Shown here one piece after another: positions 9,090 to 13,832 of a stretch of DNA of 64,000 nucleotides. Numbering within the stretch: the stretch's first letter is position 1; each line of letters opens with the position of its first letter. The notes under the pieces are model-generated. The model searched no databases. It had not been told where the DNA came from and was given only the letters and a program-made list of their open reading frames with translations. Position numbers and translations under genes: made by a program. Origin of the DNA: Adineta ricciae (taxonomy: Eukaryota > Rotifera > Eurotatoria > Adinetida > Adinetidae); assembly GCA_905250025.1 (NCBI GenBank), contig CAJNOJ010000248.1, positions 62,001-126,000 of the forward strand, in the 5' to 3' direction.

Positions 9090-9617
9090 CGTTAATAGAA
9101 TGGCTTTGTTTAAAAAAAAGGAGGCCAAGCGATAAAAAAAAAACTTTCATCATCTTTTTCTTCTCTCTTTCCATCAGTTTAATTGTTCTACTCATCGACT
9201 TTGCTAGACCTGGTGTTCTATCAGGAGTTACAACACAAACAGAATCGATATTCTTGACATAAATTCGTTCGCTGTATCTCAAACTTTGCCAATGAGAATT
9301 ATTGTCCATATACTGTATGTCCTAAATACGGTTGCACTTTGCCAACTTAATTATTTCAATCATAATAGTATGATGTTTTAACAAAAGATGAGATGATGGA
9401 GTACACGCTTCCACGCTATCCGCAGAGAATGATTCGAGAAAAGCAACTGACCTTTTTGTGGGTGTTCGAAAGATGTTGATGATGACTATCGTGGTGTTTG
9501 CTTTACTCTTCTCACACGTATTCTTAAGGAAAATATGTGAGATTAGTTGCTGACGCACGTTTTCTATTAAGAAATATGAACTGAGATTCTTTTTCTTTTT
9601 CACATTCAATTTAAAGA
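9090..9617. other. Divergent intergenic region, no gene seen
   Basis: This lies between the divergently transcribed PAN-kelch gene and the GPCR at 9618. It must hold both promoters. The open frames here lack ATG starts or coding character. Confidence 0.5.
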
Positions 9618-10535
9618 ATGACAAACGTATTGCACGTTGTTTTAATTATCCAAATAATCATGTTTTCGATCATTACGCTATTACTGTTAATTTATCTTCT
9701 TCCGCTTGTCTTCGTTCGACGGTTTCATACAAGTCATAACATTCTAGTAGGTAATTTATGTTTAGCCGGTATTATCTGTTCTGCGTATTGGTTAGTGAAT
9801 AAATCACTTCATCTCTACCGTTTGAACGTCTTTGACAAATCAATCGGAATGTGTATTTTCAATGCGTATCTGTCGCAGGCAGTTAATTTCCTGTTAGTGT
9901 ACTCGTTGGTGATAATTATTATCAATCGCTGCTGTACGATTATTTATCCGAGTAAAAATTTATTTAAAAGTTTAGAATGGTCGTTACTATCGGCGTTTTT
10001 CCAATGGATTGTTTGCATTGTTTTGTCAATACCGTTTTTCATCGCATTTTACCGGGTAAAATGAACACATTGCGAATATCATCGATTTCATTCTAGTTTT
10101 TAGATGTGCACACGCGATAAACATTCAACACAAAGGATTTATTATTACAGTTTAATCATGACTGTGGTAGTTCCATCACTATTGAACATTATTTTCAACT
10201 CAATTATCATTTTCTCCGTTCGATCATCCACTCGACGCGTTCATATGACATTACCCATTAGAGACAACGCATATCAACAACATTCGCGTGATGTGTATTT
10301 ACTTAAGCATATATTGTTTATCTTCGTCGTGTTTATGATCGGATGGGCACCAGTTTATATTGTACTTGCGATTGATGGAAAGACAAGAATACAAATTTGG
10401 ATCTATTTGCTTTTGCAGATTCCACCGGTGATGAGTGCTGTGATTCAAACATTTGATTTGTTTATATATAATCGTGAAGTTCGCCGGTATTTACGAGAAA
10501 AAATATTCCAGCTTTTACATTGCATTTTCAATTGA
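9618..10535 (+). CDS. Rhodopsin-family 7TM receptor
   Basis: Exons 9618-10055 and 10104-10535 join across a 48-nt GTAAAA..TTTTTAG intron, giving about 289 aa. Seven hydrophobic segments are visible. TM1 begins near residue 8. The end of TM3 carries NRCCTIIYP in place of the usual DRY box. TM6 has FMIGWAPVY, and TM7 is followed by a short cytoplasmic tail. There is no signal peptide and the N-terminus is very short. This resembles the divergent peptide or orphan class A receptors that are expanded in bdelloids. The ligand cannot be predicted. The D/E of DRY is replaced by N, which may alter G-protein coupling. Confidence 0.82.
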
Positions 10536-11060: not shown

Positions 11061-13832
11061 TTATAAGATTGTACAAGTTGATGATTGTTCTGGTGGCTTT
11101 TGTTCGATAGTATTCTCTTTTAGTAGTCGAGCCATTGCTTTAGCAAACCGATGGAATTCATGCGGTGGAAGAATCTGATCTCGATGTTTGTATTTAAAGA
11201 TTTGTGAGTATATTTTTCGTTGTTCATATCGATCTTTTGATAGAATTTGTGCATAATCAAGCATTTCGAGTCCTGATCGAAATCGATATAAGTCATAAAT
11301 TTCATCCATAATTCCTTCTTGTTGAAACCAACGACGAATGTCACTAGCTGCCCATTTGTCAATAGGAGGTAGGTCAACGGTAACAGATGAAGTTTCTTGT
11401 ACCGGACTTTTGGATGGAACAAGTTCTGCAGGATTTTCGCTGTGCGCAGATTCTTTAAGAGTTTCATGATGTATGAGTTCTATAGGAGTTTCATGATGTA
11501 TGAGTTCTATAGGAGTTTCATGTGGCATAGGGTCTGTAGAAGCATCACGGCGTACAGGTTCTACAGGAGCGTCATAGTGTACAGGTTCTACAGGAGCGTC
11601 ATAGTGTACAGGTTCTACAGGAGCGTCATAGTGTACAGGTTCTACAGGAGCGTCATAGTGTACAGGTTCTACAGGAGCGTCATAGTGTACAGGTGCTTTA
11701 GGGGTCTCATGGTACGTAGGTTCTGCAGGTACCTCATGATGTACAGGTGCTGTTGACGATATGATGATATTTTTGTCGTGTGAAATTTCAGCTTGAATTC
11801 GTTCAATCAAATCTTTCATGTTCGACTCGTTCGGTTCACTCGGATTTCGAAATCGAACATATTTCATTCCGGCTTTTCGTATTCCTATATGATAATTGGA
11901 ATATTTGGCATAGTTTAGCGAAAGAACTATCGACATACCCAGCCAACCTTTTGGTTTATAATCGCCAATCAAAATAGGAATAATAGGCTTTTGTAAATCA
12001 TCAACAGCATAGATAAATTCTTGTCGACATGATTTACTTTGCTGATAGTATTCTGATATAAAACAAAGAATAACATCAGCATTTTCGATAGCATCGGCAA
12101 TTTTTTCCCATAGATCTCCCGTCGCGCAGTGTTGAATATCAATCCAGACTTTCAACTTATCATTCATTCGTTCAACTTCTTTCAGAATCTGATAACAAAA
12201 TTTGTCGTCCTTATGCGCATAACTAAACATCACGAGTGGTAAACTATCATCCGTTGTTGATCGATCTTTCTTATTAGAAAACCTAAGCAAAAACTAGTTC
12301 ACATACAAACTCAACAAGAAGCATACATATCCGATTCTTTGATATCTTTAGTTTTACGATGCAAAGCTTTCTTGGATTGGTCCTCTTGTGATGTCGCATC
12401 CATGTGTAAATTGTAAAGAATACCATCCGCCGCCTTTTTTATGCTTTGCATAGCCCGAGGTTTGTATTGATCGCACGTTTGACTATGTTCATCCGTTGCC
12501 AATCTCTTGATAGTATCTATCAACTGTGTATTATTTTTCAATTCCTCTTGATATTCTCCTTGGAATGAAATACTCCAAACGATATTGTAAAGAGCGATGC
12601 ACGAGAATTGATTGAGAGGATCTGTACTCGTGATTAAATCACTAAAAGCAATAAGAAGATCGGCAAACAGTTTCACTGTGGAAGCCTTGTTCAATGATGG
12701 CTCGGTTTCGGCATGCAACATTATGTAATCGACTGTTCGTTCATCTACTACGAATAGCTTTGCCAAGACACCGACGAGATGTGCGACATGATAACGAACA
12801 TTTACGCATGTGAAATCTTCATTACCGGCAGCTTCCATAGTTAACTGTAATAATTGGTCGAGCACGGTGTTCATACCTTTCTGATCCTCTTTAAGTTGTT
12901 CAGGTGTTGATAACAGAGCTATGGCCAAAGAACAACATAACGATAGTTTATTGTTCTGTGCAATTTCGTCTCTAAAGTGAAAAAATATTGTTTTCTTGCC
13001 AATTCAGACATAATATTCACCTTCTTTGATACTGTTTGACGATTTCTAGAGCTCCGAGTTTATTATATTCATCGGCACCGTCATCATGCCGTGCCATATT
13101 GTAAATAATTCGAATAAGCGGTTCGGTTGCTTCTGCATTCAAATAACCCGAGTCACTCAGCCATTTCACCGCATGTTTTGGTAGATCGAGACGAATCATC
13201 GATGGAACGAGTATTGTACGATTGGCCATACACCAAAATAAAATCAAGATCTCACTTGTAACCCGATCAAATCCTTCATTTCCGGACGATAATTCACTAG
13301 CAACTTTCTTATCTGCATAAGCTTTCAAGTTGATGAAAAAAGGTATATAATCGTTGACTAGTCTATCATCAAACGGAACAAAATTACAAGCCGATATGCA
13401 CAAGGCCATTGAAATATAGAAATAATTGTTCATAGTATTATTTTGGAACGTGCTAATGTCGTCGTTGGTCAGATGATGTCGATCGATGACAAGCACGGTT
13501 AACAAATCAAGAGAGGAATAGAACATTTCGTAGCAAAGAGGTCCATCTTTTTCTAGTCGATTTTCCAAATCTAAACCAATGAAAATTTTGTTGTAAAATA
13601 TATACGAGCAATCTGCGTATGATGCAGCATCGCTCGCAGCCGCAGAATCGATCATATATTCCATCGCTGTCCTCCATAATATCAAAGCCTTTTGCCAAAC
13701 ATTTTTCATGTCGACATCGGCTATGTTTTTGCTGTTGATTATTTGCTTCACAAGTTCGTCTAGTTTTGTGTTATACTGCTCTATCACATCGGCGCATGTT
13801 TCCAATTGAACATCAGATTGATCAGTTGTCAT
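11061..13832 (-). CDS. ARM-like + TIR + SAM-like protein with CaaX box
   Basis: Exons 13832-13021, 12971-12327 and 12282-11061 join across 49- and 44-nt introns into a single frame of about 892 aa. Residues 1-480 are all-helical and resemble ARM/HEAT repeats. Residues 500-625 are a TIR domain: VMFSYAHKDD, then KVWIDIQ, then SKSCRQEF, whose Glu574 sits at the NADase glutamate position of SARM1-type TIRs. Residues 664-761 are Pro-rich tandem nonapeptides. Residues 791-861 resemble a SAM domain (W-x(3)-DIRRWFQQEG). The last four residues, CTIL, form a CaaX box, and Leu favours geranylgeranylation. The domain set matches SARM1 (ARM-SAM-SAM-TIR), but the TIR precedes a single SAM. A role in NAD+ cleavage or immune signalling is inferred from the family and has not been shown. 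Confidence 0.85.
11552..11686 (-). repeat. Coding minisatellite, 27-bp unit x5
   Basis: Five almost identical 27-bp units encode the nonapeptide HYDAPVEPV inside the TIR gene. Degenerate units continue on both sides (about 11457-11756, for example HHETPIELI). The near identity of the core units implies recent expansion and probable length polymorphism. Length is kept in frame. Confidence 0.9.

Follow-up and report, generated by a model that had tools for sequence, protein, structure and literature searches.

The TIR domains of MyD88 and the TLRs partner with a death domain or LRR, and SARM1, an enzyme of nerve degeneration, carries a tandem SAM pair and hydrolyses NAD+ under regulation by NMN and NAD+. 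SARM1 proteins are described as having a C-terminal TIR domain, and a genome usually encodes just one of them (PMC7075850). Arm is also reported in combination with TIR in choanoflagellates (PMC6040629), and for Aplysia, 10 armadillo-fold TIR proteins are counted separately from TLRs and SARM (PMC9334734). In prokaryotes, Cat1 is described as a CARF-TIR protein of type III CRISPR. According to a preprint presenting a TIR atlas, there are several eukaryotic TIR clades that are common in non-model animals and uncharacterised (PMC13142454); 'ecTIR-DC' families have been described, after an earlier paper (PMC6321704). The order ARM-TIR-SAM-CaaX may already be catalogued in the paper behind these families; among the papers listed by our literature searches, none was recognised as describing an ARM-TIR-SAM order with a CaaX end.

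The gene examined here lies in a 64-kb window, meaning the whole stretch of DNA that was analysed. It is a member of a large, expanded ARM-TIR-SAM-like family, of which about half (15 of the 29 genes examined) have a CaaX end. The gene spans 13832 to 11061 on the minus strand, and the splice model has GT-AG introns at 13020-12972 (49 nt) and 12326-12283 (44 nt). The sequence-only reading had given three exons and 892 residues; strand and both small introns stand, but a third intron was missed at 11938-11885 (minus strand), 54 nt or 18 codons long, in-frame and bounded by GT and AG. Because this intron had been taken as coding, the four-exon protein has 874 residues, not 892. Its features are as follows.

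13021..13832, minus strand: exon 1, which has the start codon and the beginning of the N-terminal helical/ARM region (residues 1-270)
12327..12971, minus strand: exon 2, remainder of the ARM region
11939..12282, minus strand: exon 3, bulk of the TIR domain
11061..11884, minus strand: exon 4, which has the end of the TIR, the repeat spacer, the SAM-like module, the CaaX box and the stop codon
11885..11938, minus strand: intron 3, 54 nt, GT..AG, in-frame
12410..13397, minus strand: ARM core, residues about 146-458, intron 1 inside
11832..12236, minus strand: TIR domain, residues about 502-618, intron 3 inside (PF13676, E 1.9e-17)
12018..12020, minus strand: Glu574, opposite the catalytic Glu of SARM1 in both the MAFFT and the hhalign alignment
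11406..11750, minus strand: repeat spacer of VHYDAPVEP units, relaxed selection (dN/dS 0.58 over residues 641-770)
11112..11366, minus strand: SAM-like five-helix module, residues about 774-858 (18-row alignment, dN/dS 0.11, helices mapped from the L056 model)
11064..11075, minus strand: CaaX box CTIL, residues 871-874, predicted prenylation site

Evidence for intron 3 comes from the paralogues. Alignment with them reveals an insert within the window TIR that they lack and that corresponds to the 54 nt; splicing it out restores GWLG-IRKAGMKYVRF, comparable to GWLG-IRIAGQKYIHF in the single-frame relative L052, and single-frame relatives have no insertion at this point. The intron is also present in a second copy of the gene (L042). 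In draft models it occurs at the same point in C253 (L043) and C586 and nearby in L044 and C456, and intron 1 is at about the same position in the C253 and C586 paralogues; these drafts, with doubtful junctions in L043, L044, L045, L046 and L048, were used for intron position only. The correction leaves the numbering of Glu574 unchanged, and both the Glu of SCRQEF (E574) and the terminal CTIL, as originally read, are present in the corrected protein.

The 130-Mb assembly contains at least 140 TIR_2 matches, counted as places and not as genes. The 29 TIR genes examined comprise the window gene, 18 loci (L042-L059) and a further 10 (L001-L008, L026, L028); as they were chosen as best matches, the sample is biased towards kin. 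Two pieces of the window gene (exon 3 to 4; exon 1) served as queries for paralogues, which lie on contigs C248, C253, C456, C586, C285, C52, C70, C48, C10, C190, C262 and C252. The second copy is found on C248, 56 kb from the window gene, and is 92% and 95% identical in the two queried pieces; the exon 2 region (residues 282-465) is 46-48% identical to the C253 paralogues. The modules lie within one open frame in L056 (a 778-codon frame), L052/L053, L050/L051, L057 and L058, and the frame of L056 holds ARM, TIR, SAM-like module and a CIIM end together. The module order is therefore not a splicing artefact, and we consider ARM-TIR-SAM-like-CaaX to be very probably correct.

Several features of the family's genomic setting were also recorded. 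Fourteen of the 18 module-bearing members (window gene included) form seven close pairs, six of them each within one contig, with dS of about 0.10-0.28 in the compared pieces (C248, C253, C285, C456, C262, C252, C10/C190). Plus-strand open frames at 9615-10064 and 10104-10535, seven-helix receptor-like by eye, adjoin the window gene, and next to the second copy (L042) there are likewise open frames antisense to the same gene, so the duplication on C248 looks segmental. The bdelloid telomere repeat TGTGGG shows no enrichment, with 38 matches against 44 for its reversed control. The C252 genes (L058, from 906, and L059) have an extra N-terminal stretch before the ARM region that by eye resembles a degenerate TIR, and L059 is broken by in-frame stops.

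No sequence family matched the ARM region, and in Pfam scans for ARM or SAM, which covered the window protein together with 22 rows of the family, the matches seen above a curated cut-off were all TIR models. The ARM/HEAT-like helices that had been proposed nevertheless gain support from structure prediction: an AlphaFold2 model, built for the paralogue L056 (764 aa, one open frame) rather than for the window chain itself, contains an armadillo solenoid, and 79 of 272 ARM residues are identical between the two proteins. The model has a pTM of 0.54, with the first 180 residues poor and domain packing not firmly given. In a structure comparison of this model (VIA-align), the 50 matches listed are filled by ARM-range ones and bear on neither the TIR nor the SAM-like fold; the absence of SARM1 among these 50 excludes nothing. 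An ARM end before the TIR was detected in 25 of the 29 genes. The 18 family genes have a match to the window ARM or to its relatives, and an ARM-end HMM finds seven of the remaining 11 at E < 0.01 (L005, L006, L007, L002, L003, L028, L055); its matches are weak in L026 (0.033), L004 (0.13) and L008 (0.21), with 1.6 for L001. In addition, L060 (on C116; 449 codons) and L061 (on C1; 425 codons) are open frames that match the ARM region at 24-26% identity (ARM-end HMM 8e-38 and 8e-31), and no TIR_2 place occurs near either among the genome TIR_2 matches listed. On this evidence they are ARM-only relatives and possible regulators.

The TIR domain is readily recognised, with 64.3 bits for Pfam TIR_2 against a curated cut-off of 28 (E 1.9e-17). 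Two methods, MAFFT and hhalign, align Glu574 with the catalytic Glu of SARM1, Glu642; the hhalign match to the SARM1 TIR is weak (41.6%). A C..E motif is present in all 29 TIR genes (19/19 rows and 10/10 further loci), found with a search expression that itself requires Glu and that no locus failed to match. An 11-row alignment of the TIRs has invariant D, W, S, C, E, A, P and F positions, of which the Asp and Trp line up with SARM1 pocket residues. Four positions before the Glu (-4), SARM1 and Cat1 have Trp, whereas the window subfamily has Ser (Ser570 in the window protein), except for Asn in L058; L055 has Val, and the other 10 TIR genes have Phe, Tyr or Asn. In the alignment, the window TIR also does not keep the SARM1 BB-loop motif. 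With the -4 Trp replaced by Ser and this motif gone, catalysis may be lost or altered. Searched against the PDB, the window protein has Cat1 as its best match (E 0.0014); for the family profile, the matches listed comprise MyD88 (1e-5), Cat1 (1.2e-5), TLR TIRs (2e-4 to 0.27), a single plant TIR and some chance chains. On balance, we give the TIR domain an even chance of being enzymatic.

When the module behind the TIR is aligned across 18 rows of the family, the window protein among them, three columns are invariant: W, F and Y. Searching the genome with the module of the window protein gave 20 matches, 19 of them beside a TIR_2 place (C353 included) and the twentieth at E 5.6. An HMM built from the 18 rows also finds the module behind the TIR in L026 (6e-4), L005 (0.0095), L028 (0.019) and, weakly, L007 (2.4), and, in a set of 1694 ORFs, has no other match beyond the loci it was trained on. 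Missed by this HMM are L001-L004, L006, L008 and L055. An extended HMM, to which six modules were added (L001, L002, L004, L005, L026, L028), finds L003, L006, L007, L008 and L055, none of which is in its training set; L003 and L008 closely duplicate training rows, unlike L055 (1e-15), L007 (3e-15) and L006 (1.5e-10). In total, the module stands behind the TIR in all 29 genes examined, six having first been spotted by inspection. The window gene had been read as one odd gene with an ARM-TIR-SAM order; the order holds, as ARM-TIR-SAM-like-CaaX, but the gene is one of many.

As for the nature of this module, the L056 model has five helices (675-684, 689-695, 700-712, 716-728 and 735-750; helices 3 and 4 of 13 residues each) at block pLDDT 79-97. 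The window module has no Pfam SAM match, and those of its relatives match weakly and below cut-off (SAM_3, E 0.007; SAM_2, about 0.1). Likewise, hhalign gave weak matches to the SARM1 SAM pair (20 columns, 26% probability) and to six SAM sequences (3% probability). A PDB profile search with the module yielded nothing significant in the 10 rows listed, among them ribosomal L18 (0.018), a pyrin domain (0.035) and liprin-beta-1 (0.54); with this outcome, a death-fold identity is also conceivable for the module. The earlier term SAM is thus only partly sustained: a homologous five-helix segment makes 'SAM-like' fair, but no curated SAM model is matched above its cut-off, leaving the name 'SAM' itself unproven.

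A C-terminus of the form C-x-[VIL]-x is found in 15 of the 29 TIR genes, compared with 2 of 240 control frames, namely the other open frames of at least 60 codons in the 64-kb window (241 with the window gene itself). The ends are CTIL (window gene, L042), CVLS (L043, L044), CQIS (L045, L046), CILL (L048, L049), CVIS (L054), CIIM (L056), CMLM (L058), CILM (L059), CSLM (L055), CNVM (L026) and CELM (L028). Fourteen genes fall outside the pattern: L005 (CRMM) and 13 others (L001-L004, L006-L008, L047, L050-L053, L057), in some of which a missed last exon could hide a CaaX end. With L028 left out and kinship ignored, Fisher's test gives p = 1e-13 (14/29), and 7e-10 for groups of close copies (9/20). 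L002, L003 and L057 end in a lone terminal Cys (NKKNKC, NKKSKC and INKC), which is not a CaaX box. In CaaX boxes generally, Leu at the last position directs geranylgeranylation, and Ser or Met farnesylation.

The recurrence of CaaX-type ends in divergent paralogues strengthens the original prediction of prenylation, and a lipid anchor at the C-terminus is considered likely from these motifs. A chance match, with the protein cytosolic, is unlikely; the motif is only four residues long and 14 of the 29 relatives lie outside the pattern, but its Cys and aliphatic positions recur while adjacent tail residues diverge. Purifying selection acts on every module save the spacer: between the window gene and its second copy, dN/dS is 0.18 overall, 0.12 for residues 1-480 (the ARM side), 0.09 for the TIR and 0.11 for the SAM-like end, against 0.58 for the spacer. 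The nine-residue VHYDAPVEP repeats of this fast-evolving spacer differ in copy number between the window gene and the near-identical L042. Nine other close-copy comparisons gave dN/dS of 0.19-0.61; the top value, for the SAM-like exon of the C285 pair, indicates little constraint there. That the window gene is itself a decaying copy or a gene-model artefact, as the existence of close copies and the in-frame stops of L059 might suggest, is most improbable given its intact frame and dN/dS of 0.09-0.12 in three modules.

Taken together, the modules most likely make up a membrane-anchored, ARM-restrained TIR effector, possibly an NADase. Prenylation of the CaaX Cys would hold the protein on membranes via the flexible spacer, and the ARM solenoid would keep the TIR quiet or sense a ligand; on activation, TIR domains would assemble, aided by the SAM-like module, with NAD+ or a related nucleotide as the substrate they cleave. 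NAD+ would then be lost locally, or a nucleotide signal would be produced, as part of immunity or of stress death. For this explanation as a whole, whose functional part is inferred, we see the chances as balanced; autoinhibition by the ARM domain is a somewhat more tentative element. A membrane-anchored but non-enzymatic scaffold or adaptor, with a partner-recruiting TIR and a Glu retained for its structural role, is the less probable reading of the same domains. It would agree with MyD88 heading the family-profile matches listed, ahead of Cat1 and the TLR TIRs, with the loss of the -4 Trp and a BB loop unlike that of SARM1, and with the lipid- or membrane-bound state of some animal TIR adaptors (TRAM, TIRAP); it sits less well with a Glu in 29/29 TIR genes, where MyD88 has Gln in the alignments, and with the Asp and Trp that are invariant in the 11-row alignment, opposite SARM1 pocket residues.

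A true SARM1 relative with reshuffled domains is very unlikely. The broad kinds of module are the same and the Glu is conserved, and the family might fill a vacant niche, as a genome search with the human SARM1 TIR, run to E 1 and without positive control, gave no match. However, the description 'permuted SARM1' is not supported: the window TIR shares 24/129 residues with human SARM1, has Ser in place of the -4 Trp and, in the alignment, lacks the SARM1 alpha-C insertion; it is also central (residues about 502-618 of 874), with one SAM-like module C-terminal to it. SARM1 is absent among the PDB matches listed at E up to 10, both for the window protein (14 rows) and for the family (20 rows). 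In a 25-row tree, SARM1 groups with Cat1 and separately from the 22 TIRs of the genome, though on very long branches and with support of 80/86, and MyD88 is placed among the genome TIRs. Elsewhere in the genome, no SAM_1 (38) or SAM_2 (36) place lies near a listed TIR_2 place, the closest pair on shared contigs, judged by eye from the lists, being about 28 kb apart; four SAM loci read by eye showed ankyrin repeats in two and TIR in none. Canonical SARM1 is thus tentatively missing from the genome; only tentatively, because exon splitting could conceal one.

Should the TIRs of the membrane-anchored, ARM-restrained effector prove both enzymatic and lipid-anchored, animals would have a TIR family whose NAD+ cleavage is restricted to membranes. 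The family would also represent an ARM-gated TIR design with an origin or persistence separate from that of SARM1. A bolder and rather improbable extension is that an animal possibly without SARM1 has evolved many prenylated, membrane-tethered, ligand-gated, NAD+-consuming ARM-TIR-SAM-like enzymes, which replace soluble SARM1 and perhaps Toll-type signalling and form a plant- or bacteria-like TIR immune repertoire. The single-frame members L056, L052, L050 and L057 should be easy to express and assay.

Each of the known systems shares part of this architecture. Cat1 has the C..E motif and is the top PDB match of the window protein, but keeps Trp at -4. MyD88 and TLR TIRs are top matches of the family profile, and MyD88 differs in having Gln where the window family has Glu. 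The ARM-TIR proteins of Aplysia, matched by description only, combine an armadillo-type fold with a TIR, as here; the passages covered mention no C-terminal SAM-like module or CaaX (PMC9334734). With SARM1, TIR-1 and dSARM, the family has in common an ARM solenoid (here by paralogue model), a TIR with a catalytic-type Glu and a small helical module that might serve as an oligomeriser; it differs in its central TIR, the one SAM-like module that follows, the CaaX end and the many genes. The family resembles SARM1 and may act in a comparable way, as an ARM-gated TIR effector, yet the order of its modules, the number of SAM-like modules and the details of its TIR place it outside SARM1 membership.
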